Shown here piece by piece: positions 21,130-29,394 of a stretch of 38,668 nt of DNA. The position numbers were made by a program, and so were the translations under genes. Source of the DNA: Candidatus Thalassarchaeaceae archaeon (GTDB taxonomy: Archaea; Thermoplasmatota; Poseidoniia; Poseidoniales; Thalassarchaeaceae). The stretch's first letter is position 1. Each line of letters begins with the position of its first letter. Location of the stretch: assembly GCA_030747395.1 (NCBI GenBank), contig JASLKT010000008.1, positions 1-38,668 of the forward strand. Reading direction: 5' to 3'. Below the pieces are notes generated by a model. That model searched no databases. It worked only from the letters and a program-made list of their open reading frames with translations, and had not been told where the DNA came from.

Positions 21130-22197
21130 TTACTCAATTTCCTTTCGCCCTTGTTGTGCTCGATGATAGATCTCTCGTAGGCTCTGGTCACCGATTTCAA
21201 GGTAGACTCGGGTTGTAGAGATATTCGCATGCCCCAGAAGTCTCTGGATGCTGACAAGATCAACTCCATTTTCCAGTAGCCCCGTGGCAAAATTATGCCG
21301 CAATGTATGCGGACTCAGTTTCGAACGAGGTATGTCTGAGGCATCAGCGAGTACATCCATCAATTTCTGAACTGCACGAGGTGTCAATCTGCGTCCACGT
21401 CGATTTAGAATGAGTGCATCGCGATGGTCATCGGAAGGCACATGCCGAGATATGATTTTATTTCGCACACGGCCATAGGCTTCGATGGCCTCAACGGTGG
21501 ATTCTGTGAATAGAACCAGACGATCCTTCCCACCTTTCCCATCCCGCACGGTTGCTGATAAATCATCTAAATCAACTGATGACCGGTCTAGTGCGCAAAG
21601 TTCAGAAACTCGCATTCCAGTATCGAGGAATACAGTGATGACGACATTGGCAAAGGGATTCTCACTGGTCGCAGCCGCCTCCTTCAATCGATCCATTTCA
21701 CGATGTGTGAGAGTTTTCGGTAAACTTCGGCCCTTTTGTGGTCGTGTCACCCAATCAGGTACACGATGACCAACCCAATTCAAGAGGTGACTAACCGATG
21801 CTAAACGGGCATTGATTGTTGCAGATGCAAGATGCGATATCGATTGGACCCAAATGTCAAGGCGACCATTGTTTGGATCCACCCATCGAGAAATTTGAGT
21901 CACAGAGATATTCTGCAAAGCATCCCAAGAAGGTGGAAGTTCTCCAGGAAGCACAGTTGTCAAGAATTGTTTGGTTGCAGTTCGGTAGGATCGAAGCGTA
22001 TGTGCACTTTTCTTTTCACTTGCCAATTGCATTTCATAGCAACCATGCCACGGTAAATCTGCCAAACGTGTCAATCGACTAGGCAATCCATATGGTACGC
22101 CCAATTCTTCTTCTGAAAAAGGAGTGGCAAAGCGACCCCCTTTTACTGATTCTGACCAATTGTTTTCTGTTGACTTTCTTTGATTTCCATCCTGCAT
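21130..22197 (-). CDS. xerA: tyrosine recombinase, XerA/XerC-like
   Basis: A site-specific recombinase of the lambda-integrase family; from ATG 22197 it has 355 residues. An N-terminal SAM-like DNA-binding domain (about 40-145) precedes the catalytic domain. The catalytic set is complete: R196 in DTGMRVSEL, the lysine in GKGGKDR (K224), H297-xx-R300 in SPHTLRHNF, H323 in LLGHANISTT and the nucleophile Y332 in RVYLEI. Xer proteins resolve chromosome dimers at dif sites; archaeal XerA acts alone. No integrase neighbours or attachment sites are visible, which supports a housekeeping role. ATG 22239 is also possible and would add a Gly/Pro-rich lead. The nearby H1-like and ParA genes fit a chromosome-maintenance neighbourhood. 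Confidence 0.92.
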   Translation of the reverse strand: MQDGNQRKSTENNWSESVKGGRFATPFSEEELGVPYGLPSRLTRLADLPWHGCYEMQLASEKKSAHTLRSYRTATKQFLTTVLPGELPPSWDALQNISVTQISRWVDPNNGRLDIWVQSISHLASATINARLASVSHLLNWVGHRVPDWVTRPQKGRSLPKTLTHREMDRLKEAAATSENPFANVVITVFLDTGMRVSELCALDRSSVDLDDLSATVRDGKGGKDRLVLFTESTVEAIEAYGRVRNKIISRHVPSDDHRDALILNRRGRRLTPRAVQKLMDVLADASDIPRSKLSPHTLRHNFATGLLENGVDLVSIQRLLGHANISTTRVYLEIGDQSLREIYHRAQQGRKEIE

Positions 22198-22212
22198 GCT
22201 GCTACCATCCTC

Positions 22213-22251
22213 AGGGCCCAAAGGCCCCTGCAATCCCATCCCCGAAGGGAT
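22213..22251 (-). promoter_or_regulatory. two small hairpins upstream of the xer gene
   Basis: On the minus strand ATCCC-TTCG-GGGAT (22251 to 22238) forms a hairpin with a stable TTCG tetraloop and overlaps the possible start ATG at 22239. A second, imperfect stem follows at about 22231-22213 (CAGGGGCC-TTT-GGGCCCTG, one mismatch), ahead of the preferred start at 22197. Either could modulate translation. Confidence 0.35.
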
Positions 22252-22341
22252 ACCGCAGTCAGGGGGTGATGGTATCAATGCTGCGCAGGGTCAATTGGAT
22301 TATCCGCCCCAAAGAGGTGCGAATTTGAAATGCCGGCTTCT

Positions 22342-23613
22342 TCAGCGGCGCCGATATCGCCAATGGTGTTCAGGAACTCGTGCCGCCCATGCTGCTTCGT
22401 TCTCAATGTTCGATTCAACATTCCACGGTTGTGGTTTTTCTGGCGCTGTAAAACGAGCATCAATTGTTTGTTGAATCAATGGACGAATGCGCTGATGTAG
22501 AACTTCAATTTCTCCGTAGAAGATGAGTTCATCAGCCTCACGAAGAACAAGATCACCAGATGGATTCCAAATGTGGGCTCCTGCACGACCAATCGCTGCG
22601 ACGGTTCCATCCTCATCAAATGTCATCAAATCGCCAAGGCGACGACCGACAAGTTCGGGATAGCGTCGCACTTTCAACGAAAGCGTACCATGCCCTTCTT
22701 TGTTTGAAAGCAATTGATTCAAATCGATTGGTGTGAAGGCATGAGTTTCAACAACGTGAGCCATAATGTGTCCTGCAACATTGATTCCGCTTGCCTTCTC
22801 AATCCCTTCTAGTCCTGGACTTGAGTTGACTTCGAGTAGTAGAGGGCCCCGGGATGATTCAAGCAAATCAACTCCAGCCACATCCAATCCAAGCAGACGG
22901 GCCGCCTTGCAAGCGATGCGAGCATAGTCATCTGGTAAATTGATACTTTCAACACTGCCACCCAAGTGGTAGTTTGATCGGAATTCCCGTCCATGGGCAC
23001 GTCGGCGCATCGATGCGACAACTTTGCCGCCCACTACGAGTACTCTCACGTCACGTCCGTGACTTTCCTGAATGTATTCCTGAACGAGAACACGGTCAGT
23101 ATCCTCAAGCACCTTCCATGCGAGTTCACTAGCTTCTCGTTCGGTGTGTGCTAGGTATACGCCAGTCCCCTGTGTGCCTTCTGGTGCCTTGATGACACAG
23201 GGCACCCCTCCAACTTGTCGAATGGCTCTCTCAACGTCACGCCAGTCGCGAACCAGTGCGGTTGTCGGTACAGGAATGTGATTTGCAGAGAGTACTTGAG
23301 TTGCGTGCAACTTATCACGACTGTTCTGAATTCCATCGCTACTGTTTGCCACATATGTACCCATGCGTTCAAATTGGCGAGCAATGGCCACACCATGGCC
23401 TGTAATCGAATATCCAATGCGTGGAACAACAGCATCTACTTCGACGTTCCACCCCTCATGCAGAATGCGTCGTCCATCATTTCCGACGGTTACGGAGAGT
23501 TTCATCGGATCCAAAACATCGACTGAACATCCGAGTGCATTTGCTTCATCTACAAGACGCCTTGTAGAGTACAGCCGAGGGCCGCGAGATAGGATGGCTA
23601 CGCGCAGGGTCAT
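22342..23613 (-). CDS. RimK-like ATP-grasp ligase fused to an RCK_C domain
   Basis: A 423-residue protein. Residues 1-290 are an ATP-grasp ligase of the RimK type, with VPCVIKAPEGTQGTGVYL (ATP loop), VLVQEYIQES, VRVLVVGGKVVASMRR and the metal-binding LLLEVNSSPGLEGIE near 258-272. RimK relatives join glutamate or another amino acid to a protein or cofactor (ribosomal protein S6, lysine carrier protein, coenzyme F420 or tetrahydrosarcinapterin). Residues about 308-378 match an RCK_C (TrkA-C) ligand-binding domain: YPELVGRRLGDL, VAAIGRAG, PSGDLVLREADELIFYG. Substrate cannot be told. It starts at ATG 23613 and diverges from the gene at 23722. Confidence 0.9.
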   Translation of the reverse strand: MTLRVAILSRGPRLYSTRRLVDEANALGCSVDVLDPMKLSVTVGNDGRRILHEGWNVEVDAVVPRIGYSITGHGVAIARQFERMGTYVANSSDGIQNSRDKLHATQVLSANHIPVPTTALVRDWRDVERAIRQVGGVPCVIKAPEGTQGTGVYLAHTEREASELAWKVLEDTDRVLVQEYIQESHGRDVRVLVVGGKVVASMRRRAHGREFRSNYHLGGSVESINLPDDYARIACKAARLLGLDVAGVDLLESSRGPLLLEVNSSPGLEGIEKASGINVAGHIMAHVVETHAFTPIDLNQLLSNKEGHGTLSLKVRRYPELVGRRLGDLMTFDEDGTVAAIGRAGAHIWNPSGDLVLREADELIFYGEIEVLHQRIRPLIQQTIDARFTAPEKPQPWNVESNIENEAAWAARVPEHHWRYRRR

Positions 23614-23721: not shown

Positions 23722-24948
23722 GTGGCATCCGGTAGTCGACAATTCATGCAGCCCGTCACCGGCCCCTCAGGTCCGCCCGTCGCTGGCCCCTCTGGAGCCC
23801 CTGATGTAGCAGGTCCATCCGGACCCCCTGTTTCAGGTCCTAGCGGCCCTCCTACTGACGTAAATCCCGCTCAATTCGACCCATTGGCCGAGATTGAAGA
23901 TGCTCGAGCCCGCCGACAAAATCGGGAAGAACGCCTTGAGATGCTTGAGAAAAAGCGCAATAGCGCTCGAATCAATGTATATCTCTTCTTGGCAGTCACA
24001 GTTATTTTGGGTATTTTCTCATTCTTCCCGGGTCCAATTTATGGCGATGTGTCAGACGACCCACAAGCCGGAATGGGTTCTACTGACGCCAAGGATTGGA
24101 TTCGTGAGGGGGGCGACAACGAGCATCGCGACAAAATATGGGATGGTTCTTCCAATGCTAGTTCCGCACACATGAACATCTACATCCCACCCCCACTACC
24201 CGACATGGGTTCAACATCAGCTGTTCGTGTTGAGGTCACCTTCGTATCATATCGAGCATCTGGTTCATCACACTTCAAGGCGGGAATGTTTGATGGAAAT
24301 TGTGATCAACCCCAACCAGCACATGAGGAATTGGATGCGGATTCGTGGCACTTGAGCGAAATAGATCTAGGCCCAGGTGAACAAGTAGAATTCACACTCT
24401 ACACTCAGCCGGGTCAGAAATGTATCCTCGTCCAATGGGTTGAACCCATTCCACAACATGAGCAGACTATACTTCGGACCATGGATCTAGAAGTGGCTGT
24501 CTATTGGCCTCGAATGCTCACTGTCCCCGTGGGCCTCATCACCTTCCTACTGGCGGGCTTCGCCTTCATCGGCGCCCAGAAGACTGGCAAGGCATACAAG
24601 TCGACAAAATATCCTGAAGGACGACCTGAGAAGAAGGTCGAGGAAGAGGTTCTTGAAGCGGCAGAAGCCGAGCAAAGAGGCGAACAGTTGGGTGTACCTG
24701 AAGTTGAAACTCCTGAAGATATGGATGCACCCGATGTCGATGGTCCGACCCTAGCAGAGGCTGCAGCAACCCCTGAGCAAGATGATGTCACACCCGATGC
24801 AGTTCCAGAAGAAGTGCCTGCGGAAGAAACAGATTCCCCAGCAGAAGAGTCCGCTCAAGCTGAGAATACAGCGTCAGCATGGACTGATGAACAACTACTC
24901 GGAGCCGGTTGGACACAAGACCAAATCGATGCTATGCGGAACGGTTGA
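23722..24948 (+). CDS. two-helix membrane protein with collagen-like N-terminal repeats
   Basis: Unrecognised 408-residue protein. The N terminus (14-44) has four GPSG blocks with intervening PP/AP, a collagen-like low-complexity stretch. A charged, probably coiled-coil segment follows (53-82), then a membrane helix (about 83-105), a 160-residue extracytoplasmic domain with a Cys pair, a second helix (about 267-290), and an acidic Pro/Glu-rich cytoplasmic tail. The end carries WTDEQLLGAGWTQDQIDAM, a short motif like those at the ends of other proteins. Start is GTG 23722; a GAGGC lies seven bases upstream. It leads the co-directional run with the SAP-domain, ParA and ParB-like genes. Confidence 0.8.
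   Translation: MASGSRQFMQPVTGPSGPPVAGPSGAPDVAGPSGPPVSGPSGPPTDVNPAQFDPLAEIEDARARRQNREERLEMLEKKRNSARINVYLFLAVTVILGIFSFFPGPIYGDVSDDPQAGMGSTDAKDWIREGGDNEHRDKIWDGSSNASSAHMNIYIPPPLPDMGSTSAVRVEVTFVSYRASGSSHFKAGMFDGNCDQPQPAHEELDADSWHLSEIDLGPGEQVEFTLYTQPGQKCILVQWVEPIPQHEQTILRTMDLEVAVYWPRMLTVPVGLITFLLAGFAFIGAQKTGKAYKSTKYPEGRPEKKVEEEVLEAAEAEQRGEQLGVPEVETPEDMDAPDVDGPTLAEAAATPEQDDVTPDAVPEEVPAEETDSPAEESAQAENTASAWTDEQLLGAGWTQDQIDAMRNG
23761..23853 (+). repeat. collagen-like GPSG(P/A)P repeat region
   Basis: Four imperfect copies encoding GPSGPP or GPSGAP separated by two or three residues (residues 14-44). Codons vary between copies, so the repeat is old or selected at the protein level. Confidence 0.8.
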
Positions 24949-25033: not shown

Positions 25034-27061
25034 ATGGACAAGGATGAACTCTCTGCTCTGACTGTTGTAGAGTTGAAGGTCCGCCTCAAGGAATTGGGCC
25101 TAACCACCAGTGGGAAAAAAGCCGATTTAATCACCCGATTGATCGAGTCCGATGACGAAGAAGAAGACGCCCTCATTCTCGAAGATGACGATGACAATTC
25201 AGAATTTGATTTGGATGAAGTCATAGAAGCAGAAGTCTTTGAGGCCGAAATCATTGATGATGAAGATGCAGAATTTGAGTTCATTGAAAGCATGACGAGT
25301 TCAACAATAAGGCACTCTGAGTCATTCTCTTCTGGGCCAGCATGGTACAAAGATGGAACCACCATTGCAACCATTCTTGTCGTGCTATTGTTGGCTGGAG
25401 CCGGAGGGTGGTGGTATCTCAGCAATGAGGCATCCGTCTATCAAACGGCCCCTTCTCGTTATGGTGATGATTTACAGTTCACCGTGAGCAATGGTTTGCT
25501 TCTAGCAGATGGAGATGAAATGGTTGCCCTGCTACGTGATGCACTATCGCCCAGTGCATTGGATGATGTCTGTGATGAATTACGTATTGAATTCACAGGT
25601 ACGGGTTCATCATCCATTACAGATGGGGCCATCAGTGACCTTCTCGACCCTAGTGATACAGACCTTGAAGGGGCTGTAATGGCCAAAGATGCCTATGGGA
25701 GAAATTGGAACACCGTCCAATCAAATCTCAACTATGATCTCAGTGCCGACCTCTCAGGATATACTTGGTCAGCCATCAATCAAGATAGTTGCAGTTCTCT
25801 AGAATGGTTGCGGAGAAACAATCAGTTGGATCTTGAAGTCAATCAGTGGCACGAAATCACAGAAAGAAGTTTGTTGCGTTCACAAACCGCACTCAATTTT
25901 GTTGACTCGGAAGGCCAATCTTTCAGTTCAGAGGCGACGACATTCGATGGCCTGATTGGTTCGAATACAATCTCAGAACTGATTGGTGCAGCAGTATTGC
26001 CAATGCATCCTGTCAATCTTTACGATATCTTTGGATTGACGGTTCTTGAAGAAGGATTGACCGGTGAAACCGATGATGGCTATTGGAGTTGGCAAGTGGG
26101 TTCAACGAGCACGATCGGTGGTCAAGATGCGATTCAAATCAGAATGTCTCACATCAAAATTGGAGAATGTCTAGGCAGAGCGGAAATGGTACTATGGGCC
26201 ATCCCAGGACAACCATTGGCAGCAAAACAAATCGTTGATGTTTACATTGACAAATCCAAAACCGAATCCGGTTGTTCGTTCACAGAATCTGAAGCGATTG
26301 ACCTCACTTTCCCTGAAGGCGAATTTGTGGTAAAATATACTCTGGAACAGACATCATTCAAGCGTGGAAACGAACTCTTGGATTGGCAGACATACTATGC
26401 CACACGCCCCGATAGTTCTGATGGCAAACCGTCGGCATCACAACGAGTATCATGGGTAAACCACATGCCTGATAATTCCTCAAGTCGATTCAATCTTGAG
26501 CAAGCAGTAAGTTGTGTAATGGCTGACGCAGCGGCATTCCCAGAGGCGAATACAGCGCTCAATGCTGATGGTTACGTGTTTGCAGCTAAGGATGACAGAA
26601 CAGGCAGTGACCCCACATGGAATCTATCATGGATTAGTTCTAGTGATGCAGGATGGGTTCGTGTCACATGGCCTGGCGGTGAAAATTGCTACAATTCAGG
26701 TGACGGTTTCTTCACTGTGGATGAGAAACCAGAACATTCTCGAGATCAAATCCCTCAAACCCACAAATTGGCATCACTAGAGAGCCGCATGGTTTCAGCC
26801 ACTTACTATCCGGATTTGAACCCACAAATCACCTCCAATGGAAACCTCCGGAGTGATGTCCAAATCGGCTATGCACTGGTTGTTCCAGAAGAAAATGCGG
26901 TTTCAGAATGGTTGGATGAATTCGACATCATGGGTGGTAAGGTCACCGTGTATCTGGAACGCACTTGGACAACGGGCAACACCGAACAGAGTCTTCGGGT
27001 CGGAATGGATGCTGAAACGGGACGAATGGCTGGTTGGGTCCTAACTTCGAGCCCAGCGTAA
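25034..27061 (+). CDS. transmembrane protein with an N-terminal SAP domain
   Basis: A 675-residue protein. Residues 5-39 are a SAP motif (ELSALTVVELKVRLKELGL, then TSGKKADLITRLIES), a helix-extended-helix DNA-binding module. It is followed by a very acidic linker (40-86), a transmembrane helix (about 108-129) and a 545-residue extracytoplasmic part rich in Ser, Asp and Trp with several cysteines. With the SAP domain on the cytoplasmic side this would tie DNA to the membrane. SAP-like motifs can also occur in proteins that do not bind DNA. It is followed by parA on the same strand after 83 bases. Extracellular function is unknown. Confidence 0.82.
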   Translation: MDKDELSALTVVELKVRLKELGLTTSGKKADLITRLIESDDEEEDALILEDDDDNSEFDLDEVIEAEVFEAEIIDDEDAEFEFIESMTSSTIRHSESFSSGPAWYKDGTTIATILVVLLLAGAGGWWYLSNEASVYQTAPSRYGDDLQFTVSNGLLLADGDEMVALLRDALSPSALDDVCDELRIEFTGTGSSSITDGAISDLLDPSDTDLEGAVMAKDAYGRNWNTVQSNLNYDLSADLSGYTWSAINQDSCSSLEWLRRNNQLDLEVNQWHEITERSLLRSQTALNFVDSEGQSFSSEATTFDGLIGSNTISELIGAAVLPMHPVNLYDIFGLTVLEEGLTGETDDGYWSWQVGSTSTIGGQDAIQIRMSHIKIGECLGRAEMVLWAIPGQPLAAKQIVDVYIDKSKTESGCSFTESEAIDLTFPEGEFVVKYTLEQTSFKRGNELLDWQTYYATRPDSSDGKPSASQRVSWVNHMPDNSSSRFNLEQAVSCVMADAAAFPEANTALNADGYVFAAKDDRTGSDPTWNLSWISSSDAGWVRVTWPGGENCYNSGDGFFTVDEKPEHSRDQIPQTHKLASLESRMVSATYYPDLNPQITSNGNLRSDVQIGYALVVPEENAVSEWLDEFDIMGGKVTVYLERTWTTGNTEQSLRVGMDAETGRMAGWVLTSSPA

Positions 27062-27144: not shown

Positions 27145-28074
27145 ATGGATGAGGATGATCTGCTGCCTGAGGCGGTCGCAGCACCTTTGGTGGTAGAATT
27201 CACTGAAGAAGAGATTCAGGGACCTGATTCAGACCCTTTGAGTTCAGCAGAACCCCGTTCTGAAATTGAACTCCCTAGGGCAGGTCCAACCCCTGCCAAT
27301 CGTGGTCGAGTTGTTACAATCATGAATCAGAAAGGTGGTGTTGGAAAGACAACTACAGTCATCAATGTCGCCACACACTTGGCTATGCATGGCGTACGAG
27401 TATTGGTGGTAGATTGTGACCAGCAAGGAAATTGTGCAACTGGACTAGGCATTGACAAAAGTCGAGTCATGCACACCACTCGAACTCTTTTCACCGAACC
27501 AGAACAGGCAGCCTCGTGTCGCCACGCAACTGCTGTTCAAGGCCTCCACCTCGTTGTTGGCGAGAGATCATTGGTGGGACTTGAACAAGAACTCTCTACG
27601 CGCCTTGGGCGTGAACGTTGTCTATCCGAAGGTCTTGAATCCCTATTGCCACACTACGATCTCATTCTACTCGACACCGCACCAAGTTTGGGTCTCGTCA
27701 CCATCAATGCCTTGGTTGCAAGTGATGCGGTCCTCGTTCCAGTACAAACCGAATTTTTCGCCTTGGAAGGTGTTGCCATGCTATCTGCCACAATTCGAGA
27801 AGTTCGACGTCGCCTCAATCCCAATCTTGGATTTGATGGAGTGATGATGACAATGCATGCGCCAACGTTACTCAATAGTCAAGTTCAGAGTCAATTGAAG
27901 GAAACATTTGGTGATTTGATTGTTGAACCACCGATTCGTCGAAACATCAAACTCGCTGAAGCACCTAGTGAAGGTATTCCAATCCACATTCATGCGCCGG
28001 AATCGAATGGTGGGAAGGATTATCGCGACCTTGCGGTTAATCTAGCTCAACGGTGGAATATCACCCTGGAGTGA
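27145..28074 (+). CDS. parA: ParA/Soj family chromosome-partition ATPase
   Basis: A 309-residue ParA ATPase. An acidic, probably flexible N-terminal extension (1-52) precedes the ATPase. The deviant Walker A motif KGGVGKTT (63-70) has the signature lysine, and VDCDQQGNCATGLGI and LLDTAPSLGLVTINAL provide the switch and Walker B elements. ParA proteins bind DNA non-specifically in the ATP state and are released by a ParB partner, moving DNA or other cargo. No helix-turn-helix is seen, so it is of the small, Soj-like type rather than the autorepressing plasmid type. ATG 27145 is preferred to TTG 27133. Its stop is five bases before the ParB-like gene. Confidence 0.93.
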   Translation: MDEDDLLPEAVAAPLVVEFTEEEIQGPDSDPLSSAEPRSEIELPRAGPTPANRGRVVTIMNQKGGVGKTTTVINVATHLAMHGVRVLVVDCDQQGNCATGLGIDKSRVMHTTRTLFTEPEQAASCRHATAVQGLHLVVGERSLVGLEQELSTRLGRERCLSEGLESLLPHYDLILLDTAPSLGLVTINALVASDAVLVPVQTEFFALEGVAMLSATIREVRRRLNPNLGFDGVMMTMHAPTLLNSQVQSQLKETFGDLIVEPPIRRNIKLAEAPSEGIPIHIHAPESNGGKDYRDLAVNLAQRWNITLE

Positions 28075-28079
28075 ACCTC

Positions 28080-28493
28080 ATGTCGAAGAAGCGCGTTTTG
28101 GGCAGGGGTCTCGATGATTTACTCGCACAACACGATCAAGACCTTCCTTTTCTCGATGCGTATGGCCCTTCGATTGGTGAATCTGAAGGTTTACCGTCGG
28201 GTGTAGGTATAGATCCTGCCGAGCAATTGATGGAAGCCATTGCACGATTGTTGCAAGCAGAAGGTCATCAAAATACAGAATTGATGACAAGTGAAGTCAA
28301 GGAAAATGGTGTTCATATTACTGTGTTGAGTGGTGGTGATAAACTACCACTCGTGCCATCCGACCTCGGAGCACCAGGTTTCGAAGAAGGAAAATTGGCA
28401 GCAGACAGAAGTGAAGCCTCGGTCACCATTGTCCAATGGGGCATCCCTGCCCGCCGCCTCCTCGAACGCCTTTGTGAACATTGGTCCGGGTGA
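28080..28493 (+). CDS. small ParA-partner protein with a ParB-like N-terminal tip
   Basis: A 137-residue protein that starts MSKKRVLGRGLDDLLAQ. This matches the N-terminal tip of chromosomal ParB/Spo0J (K/R-rich, then LGRGLxALL), the peptide that contacts ParA and triggers ATP hydrolysis. The CTP-binding/nuclease-like ParB domain and the helix-turn-helix are absent: the rest is a helix (DPAEQLMEAIARLLQAEG), a short strand-rich part and a C-terminal helix (PARRLLERLCEHW). The gene follows parA by five bases and is followed by an unrelated hydrolase, so it is not a frameshifted parB. Its role as a ParA activator or adaptor is inferred from the motif and position. Confidence 0.8.
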   Translation: MSKKRVLGRGLDDLLAQHDQDLPFLDAYGPSIGESEGLPSGVGIDPAEQLMEAIARLLQAEGHQNTELMTSEVKENGVHITVLSGGDKLPLVPSDLGAPGFEEGKLAADRSEASVTIVQWGIPARRLLERLCEHWSG

Positions 28494-28497
28494 TTGC

Positions 28498-29394
28498 ATG
28501 AGCATCCGCAGTGCTTTGGTGTCCACCTCTCTTCGACCGAACAAGACCCTTTACCGATTGTTTCGCCCATCACCAGGCCTCATTCGTTTTTTTGTTCATC
28601 CACAAACATGGTTTTGGGGGAAGTTGCTGAGCCCGTTTGGCGTCCGCTCAGAGAATACTCATTATGAAAATGTACCGGGTGTGACCTTCATTCCAAAAAA
28701 GAATGTACGACCAAACACCATCATCGTGTTTCTACATGGTGGCGGTTACTGTATCGGTTCTTCACGCACGACACATCGAATCGGTTTGGCTAATCTATCC
28801 AAGACAACCTCTTGTGTTTGCCATTCAATCGACTATCGCTTGGCCCCCAAGCATCCTTATCCCGCCGCTCTAAACGATGTTATGCAGGCATGGAAGGCCA
28901 TTATTGCTGACAATCCCGATTCACAAATCATTCTCAGTGGTGATTCGGCTGGTGGCGGCCTCAGTTTAGCATTGATGATGCGGCTGCGCGACGAAGGGTT
29001 ACGCCTCCCCGATGCTGCTGTGTTGTTCTCCCCATGGACCGATCTGACCTGTAGTTCACAGACCTACAAGACGCTGGCAAAAGCAGATCCAATGATATTC
29101 CACGGTATTCCGAATGATTGTGCTGGCCATTACGTTCCTGATTCTGCAGATCGGAAGGATCCATACATATCTCCAATGTTCGGTGATTTCACAGGTCTTC
29201 CACGAACACTGATTCTCGTTGGTGATCGAGAGATTTTACTTGATGATAGTCGAAAGGTGGGTGAGAAAGCCAAAACCGCCGGCGTCGATATTGAAGTCGA
29301 CATCTGGCCGGGGATGTTCCACGATTGGTGGTTGTTCGGCGCATTCGTACCTGAATCCAAACAATGTCTTCGAAAAGTGTCGGAGTGGATCTAG
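28498..29394 (+). CDS. alpha/beta hydrolase, hormone-sensitive-lipase-type esterase
   Basis: A 298-residue esterase of the alpha/beta-hydrolase fold-3 family. Oxyanion-hole motif HGGGYC at 80-85, nucleophile S150 in GDSAGG, acid residue in VGDREILLDDS (242-251) and H275 in GMFHDWW complete the triad. SIDYRLAPKHPYPAAL is a typical family stretch. Substrates are short acyl esters or lactones in characterised relatives; the physiological one is unknown. ATG 28498 has GGTGAT six bases upstream, an excellent match to the archaeal anti-Shine-Dalgarno, and follows the stop of the ParB-like gene by four bases. Confidence 0.9.
   Translation: MSIRSALVSTSLRPNKTLYRLFRPSPGLIRFFVHPQTWFWGKLLSPFGVRSENTHYENVPGVTFIPKKNVRPNTIIVFLHGGGYCIGSSRTTHRIGLANLSKTTSCVCHSIDYRLAPKHPYPAALNDVMQAWKAIIADNPDSQIILSGDSAGGGLSLALMMRLRDEGLRLPDAAVLFSPWTDLTCSSQTYKTLAKADPMIFHGIPNDCAGHYVPDSADRKDPYISPMFGDFTGLPRTLILVGDREILLDDSRKVGEKAKTAGVDIEVDIWPGMFHDWWLFGAFVPESKQCLRKVSEWI

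Follow-up and report, generated by a model that had tools for sequence, protein, structure and literature searches.

The 38,668-nucleotide stretch of DNA analyzed here (the window; Candidatus Thalassarchaeaceae archaeon, assembly GCA_030747395.1, contig JASLKT010000008.1, positions 1 to 38,668) encodes a 137-residue protein, F8 (28080–28493, + strand), in which a ParB-type N-terminal tip precedes a non-ParB body; orthologues occur in both families of Poseidoniales. The most economical account that we infer from these sequences is that F8 combines a docking tag with a non-ParB body and would join the adjacent ATPase, ParA1, to a cargo, with a transporter version of the protein pointing to the membrane. 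We lean, with modest confidence, toward F8 being the partner protein of a positioning ATPase of the ParA/MinD type: its tip would dock on ParA and its body would bind a cargo other than the parS centromere. The disordered, basic N-terminus would bind the ParA dimer as a ParB-type docking peptide and, once docked, would stimulate ATP hydrolysis; the folded C-terminal domain would hold the cargo or partner; and ParA1, in which basic DNA-binding residues are kept, would bind the nucleoid. In this way, the nucleoid-bound ATPase would be tied to some component of the cell. Because sister genera have a transporter in place of F8 and the upstream gene encodes a SAP (DNA-binding-type) membrane protein, that component is probably at the membrane. 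We entertain only tentatively a more specific formulation, that of an archaeal positioning system with no centromere, whose movable ParB-type tag, carried on either a soluble adaptor or a membrane transporter, would tether the nucleoid-bound ATPase to the membrane. A search of the open literature found no report of the ParA1–F8 locus.

The F8 translation, read from the window's open reading frame, begins MSKKRVLGRGLDDLLAQHDQDLPFLDAYG. Its ATG (28080) comes five bases after the stop of ParA1 (28074), and a ribosome-binding-like GGAG (28068–28071, +) overlaps the end of the ParA gene. The first-pass annotation described the F8 gene as complete, with its own start, stop, and downstream gene, and the reading frame at 28080–28493 and its translation agree. 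That next gene, an alpha/beta hydrolase (Abhydrolase_3; ATG at 28498; 28498–29394, +), is a variable neighbor missing from most other loci and lies outside the conserved unit. ParA1 (27145–28074, +) carries KGGVGKTTT and has Thermus Soj (1wcv) as its closest solved relative. Upstream of it is a putative DNA-binding SAP-domain protein with one predicted transmembrane segment (25034–27061, +; Pfam SAP, 2e-11; hydropathy and synteny), which occupies this position in every fully read locus with ParA1. The conserved order in the loci read is SAP-membrane protein, ParA1, and slot protein; in the genera labeled g13, g14, g15, and g22, the slot protein lies after or near the SAP-membrane gene without ParA1. 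A near-origin location, as in ParABS, was considered and rejected on the distances to orc1/cdc6: in one complete chromosome (G036, without ParA1) the nearer copy is ~185 kb from the locus, and in another genome (G281) orc1/cdc6 is on another contig or ~300 kb off.

Several other genes of the window accompany this locus in related genomes. A XerA/XerC-type tyrosine recombinase (21130–22278, −) lies a few kb from parA and is conserved in the neighborhood across most genera. Another conserved neighbor (22342–23613, −) looks, by eye, like an ATP-grasp protein of the RimK type with a TrkA-C/RCK-like C-terminus fused to it. A membrane protein (23722–24948, +) has GPSGPP repeats close to its N-terminus, is predicted to have two membrane segments, and carries a C-terminal tail that ends in WTDEQLLGAGWTQDQIDAMRNG. 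It is conserved next to the SAP-membrane gene in most of the genera that have F8 and is apparently missing from the genera with the transporter.

The ParA-binding motif of M. xanthus ParB uses L11, R13, L15, L18, and I19 (PMC12462528); the F8 tip (residues 7–15, LGRGLDDLL; 28098–28124, +) matches all five contact positions with identical spacing, in L7, R9, L11, L14, and L15. The general motif, (L/F/I)G[K/R]G(L/F/I) followed by later hydrophobic residues, is present as L7 G8 R9 G10 L11 and L14 L15, and the tips of 11 bacterial ParB proteins taken from public records read LGKGINALF, LGRGLDALL, LGRGLEGLL, and similar. In an HMM–HMM comparison with these 11 proteins, residues 3–22 of the F8 family alone align, to ParB residues 3–20 (E 1.6e-4), with a probability of ~50% because the aligned stretch is so short. 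Among 2,385 stretches from about 60 loci, each free of stops and 80 codons or longer, a relaxed form of the motif within 25 residues of a start turned up in 28 cases, of which 24 were F8 or the tip-bearing transporters described below and four look spurious. Judged from these comparisons, the match to ParB is more than chance, and the initial proposal that F8 starts like the N-terminal peptide of chromosomal ParB is borne out. A phmmer search of PDB sequences with the tip alone returned no match, the query being too short. The N-terminus is basic (K3, K4, R5, and R9) and, in the model, disordered, with pLDDT below 50 for residues 1–7 and the tip modeled as a short helix at 11–16; as in ParA/MinD partners, this peptide is conserved separately from the body, and it also sits on a different body, that of the transporter.

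Nothing comparable connects the remainder of F8 to ParB. The body (residues 44–137; 28209–28490, +) is predicted by AlphaFold2 to fold as α-β-β-α-β-β-α (body-only model: pLDDT 95.4, pTM 0.85), with conserved LPLVxSD and W-RR--ER--EH; the invariant or nearly invariant positions, namely LPLVxSD, a Gly, an Arg, a Trp, and RRxxxER, suggest an interaction surface. No Pfam or NCBIfam family matches F8, and a Pfam search with 36 members gave weak, scattered hits only. Foldseek searches of the PDB returned nothing below E 0.03 for the full-length model or E 0.07 for the body-only model, and the F8 profile found nothing convincing among PDB sequences (best E 0.28). These results uphold the earlier assessment that the body belongs to no known family. 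Type III chaperones surfaced in the Foldseek searches only at E about 0.5, and a known fold for the body was rejected. HMM–HMM comparison of the body with the 11 ParB proteins yielded no alignment (E 0.17, probability 0.4% over 11 columns), and at the level of profiles a disguised ParB C-terminal dimerization domain, a relationship that had been suggested by eye, was rejected. The ParB-CTPase fold (PF02195) is missing from F8, with no Pfam match and no alignment of the body with ParB, and no PF02195 gene was found in the window's genome, which is 84% complete. Nor does F8 contain the central helix-turn-helix of ParB, by either Pfam or the modeled topology. The first-pass annotation was correct that neither domain follows the tip; its description of F8 as a reduced ParB is unsupported, because nothing in the body visibly descends from ParB.

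Within Poseidoniales (Marine Group II), genera were labeled g1–g22 and the two families f1 and f2, which we infer to be Thalassarchaeaceae and Poseidoniaceae, respectively. A single-sequence search identified F8 orthologues in 43 of 59 relatives, and a profile search identified F8 in 192 of 340 genomes of the class, covering f1 genera g1, g2, g4, and g7 together with the f2 genera seen. Identity within genera is 64–90%, with one exception at 57%. Among the matches listed for 395 genomes sampled across the phylum, there were no relatives beyond the order. A virus-borne origin was also considered and rejected, no relative being encoded in viral contigs. One genome (G243; C9, C41) contains two F8-family copies, one almost identical to that of the window's genus; the extra copy is probably a misbinned contig. 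ParA1, scored as present above 200 bits against the window ParA, occurs in the f1 genera and in g16, g17, g20, and g21 of f2, and not in g12–g15, g18, g19, or g22. Some individual genomes of ParA1-bearing genera give no ParA1 match, as expected from the incompleteness of MAGs. F8 lies directly behind ParA1 in eight genera (g1, g2, g4, g7, g16, g17, g20, and g21), adjacent to an ATPase as ParA/MinD partners are, though seven more (g12–g15, g18, g19, and g22) carry F8 without ParA1.

In the remaining genera with ParA1 at the same locus (g3, g5, g6, g8, g9, g10, and g11), F8 is absent and the slot directly behind ParA1 holds an EamA protein of ~300 residues (Pfam matches of 82–93 bits for four proteins, against a cut-off of 28.2). 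This transporter occurs in 86 of 148 f1 genomes, all from those seven genera and none from the other four. Scored by alignment to the query N-terminus, with sequences read for a subset, the tip is present on 45 of the 86: 10/10 in g11, 8/8 in g5, 22/23 in g6 (the sole tipless protein being truncated), 4/14 in g3, 1/8 in g9, and none in g8 and g10. Examples of the tips read are MSSKGLGRGLESISELAKDGPDLSSYV (g11), MKKSGLGRGLDSMTNLAEDGPDLSRFV (g5), and MAKSGLGRGLEEIYSSTEGPDLSSFV (g6), with LGMGL or LGRSL in single members. The GPDLSSF/Y that follows resembles, by eye, DLPFLDAY of F8, so a common N-terminal module of about 25–30 residues is likely shared by the two proteins. Loop charges predict a cytoplasmic N-terminus for the transporter. 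Across g5, g6, and g11, LGRGL has a pN/pS of 0.04 and PDLSSF one of 0.10, against 0.23 in the spacer that follows LGRGL and 0.32 in the linker; the first membrane segment stands at 0.07. These values come from non-independent pairs with synonymous sites near saturation; no other part of the tip-bearing transporter is as constrained as the tip. The presence of the same tip on an EamA body, where it is under this constraint, favors its interpretation as a portable ParA-docking tag on a putative non-ParB partner rather than as the remnant of a trimmed ParB. The transporter genera form one clade in the ParA tree (98/99), so that a single swap suffices; as F8 is found in both families, it is probably ancestral, with the transporter version derived once and the tip lost afterward in some lineages.

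The tip and ParA1 go together, with exceptions. With a genus scored as positive if any member has the motif, and with g18, whose tips were unreadable, counted as lacking it, the strict motif is present in at least one member of 7/8 genera with ParA1 and 1/7 without (Fisher p 0.010); by genome, the corresponding figures are 29/36 and 6/31 (p 5.6e-7, relatedness ignored). A rule by which the tip occurs if and only if ParA1 does is rejected because of g22, where all six F8 proteins have LGRGL and ParA1 is lacking, and because of g8 and g10, where tipless transporters stand beside ParA1, as they do in most of g3 and g9. The tip reads LSKGF in g19, also without ParA1. LGRGL, the motif named in the first-pass annotation, is strictly kept in only part of the orthologues, and 4 of 16 F8 proteins from the window's own genus have LARGL. 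In F8 of g12–g15, the first Leu and the Gly are mostly gone, with RGLDHLM or RDLDHLM kept (LDHLI/LDHLL in g15). Since this stretch is retained without ParA1, the second half of the tip, on the evidence of its conservation, must have a further role that is independent of ParA1.

The docking surface of ParA1 is itself partly altered. Retained in ParA1 are PSLGLVTINAL, the leucines of the pocket, and RRNIKLAEAPS, a stretch that we take to correspond to DNA-binding residues of Soj. With ParA residue numbering mapped via the DxDPQGN motif, the equivalent of the invariant Tyr81 of M. xanthus ParA, which has been proposed to hold the motif Arg through an R13–Tyr81 contact, is Arg in every Poseidoniales ParA1 read (in the window, codon 27481–27483, +, by alignment). 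The equivalents of D110 and V116 are also changed; that of E117 is kept, except in g16 and for a conservative change in two g1 members. A second ParA, ParA2, with KGGCAKTTT rather than KGGVGKTTT, was found in 20/20 Poseidoniales genomes checked; wherever it shares a contig with the tip gene or ParA1, 19–36 kb separate them. It has LSGAE/DIELS, PPSLGLLTINA, and, in most genera, the docking Tyr; by sequence, ParA2 looks closer than ParA1 to the canonical ParB-docking site.

Given this site and its presence in all 20 genomes checked, ParA2 is a possible real or shared partner, and the tip might serve ParA2 in trans, the adjacent ParA1 being a secondary or former partner. At the position that is Arg in ParA1, ParA2 has the docking Tyr in most genera; it is the only ParA of its type found in the checked ParA1-less genera (g12–g15, g18, g19, and g22), and no tip-like protein was seen beside it in the loci read. 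However, F8 sits immediately behind ParA1, strict LGRGL tracks ParA1 and not ParA2, and in g19 and g22, the genera with a tip but no ParA1, the ParA2 Tyr is replaced by Ser or His; we consider this arrangement unlikely, if far from negligible. These observations bear on the earlier suggestion that F8 is a dedicated adaptor linking ParA to other cargo. An adaptor or tag fits the finding of the tip on an EamA body in the same slot; that it is dedicated is uncertain, because seven genera keep the body without ParA1, tipless transporters occur beside ParA, and the ParA2 site is the more canonical.

Two further explanations appear less probable. The body could be a new DNA-binding, centromere-recognizing domain, such that ParA1 and F8 would act as a minimal segregation system, like ParAB without the CTPase clamp. 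ParA1 is Soj-like, and the archaeal SegB is reported as a case in which an unrelated fold takes the role of ParB (PMC11381335, PMC12284271). Yet the body has no recognized DNA-binding fold, a membrane transporter takes the place of F8 in sister genera, and orc1/cdc6 is not near the locus where distances could be read, all of which make such a system improbable. We give slightly less credence still to the idea that the tip now has no role with ParA, being either vestigial or an N-terminal peptide of a general kind, and that the transporter tip arose by a deletion that fused the start of F8 to a downstream gene and is now decaying. The loss of the tip in g8, g10, and most of g3 and g9, and its erosion in most ParA1-less lineages, would be consistent with decay, but the tip is almost fully kept in g5, g6, and g11, where pN/pS for LGRGL is lower than for the first membrane segment.

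The preferred reading of F8, as a docking-tag partner of ParA1, can be set against several known systems. Like chromosomal ParB/Spo0J, F8 has an N-terminal LG[RK]GLxxLL docking peptide and a gene directly behind a Soj-type ParA; unlike them, it lacks, by profile, the CTPase fold, the HTH, and the C-terminal dimerization domain. As far as its sequence indicates, F8 is a protein that would work like a ParA/MinD partner with the docking peptide of chromosomal ParB, yet it is not a ParB, since these three defining domains were looked for and are absent. In SegAB of Sulfolobales, too, an archaeal relative of ParA has a partner gene other than ParB, whereas the F8 body has no detectable relation to a known DNA-binding domain. 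The F8 tip presumably also differs from SegB. PadC of M. xanthus and other ParB-like proteins similarly carry a ParA-binding motif on a protein serving a non-parS target, but they keep the ParB-CTPase fold (PMC12704722), to which the F8 body has no match. Partners of ParA/MinD ATPases (McdB, ParB, and others) combine a basic, disordered N-terminal peptide with a diverse cargo-binding remainder and are encoded beside the ATPase, as is F8 (PMC10241942); by comparison, the F8 peptide is of the chromosomal ParB type, its body is a new family, and the partner in sister genera is a polytopic EamA transporter.

A survey built on the ParB-CTPase fold reported chromosomal ParABS to be generally absent from archaea (PMC12704722); F8 and transporter bodies would escape a survey keyed on that fold. 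A chromosomal-type docking peptide is present, beside a Soj-like ParA, in an abundant marine archaeal order. It provides a natural case in which such a peptide has changed bodies, a membrane transporter being one of them, and bears on how orphan ParA/MinD ATPases gain cargos. The substitution of Arg for the docking Tyr in ParA1 makes the proposed R13–Tyr81 contact testable.

The ParA2 locus has a neighborhood of its own. In a representative example (L044:8693–9649, corresponding to G000:C62:74693–75649; relatives L212–L231), ParA2 adjoins a MoxR-like AAA gene, with IF2-like and ndk-like genes upstream (names assigned by eye). Two small genes lie behind ParA2 in several f2 genera (L240:9135–9666, L243:9810–10327, and L244:12011–12543); by eye only, they are ribbon-helix-helix-like and PIN-like, resembling VapBC or SegB.
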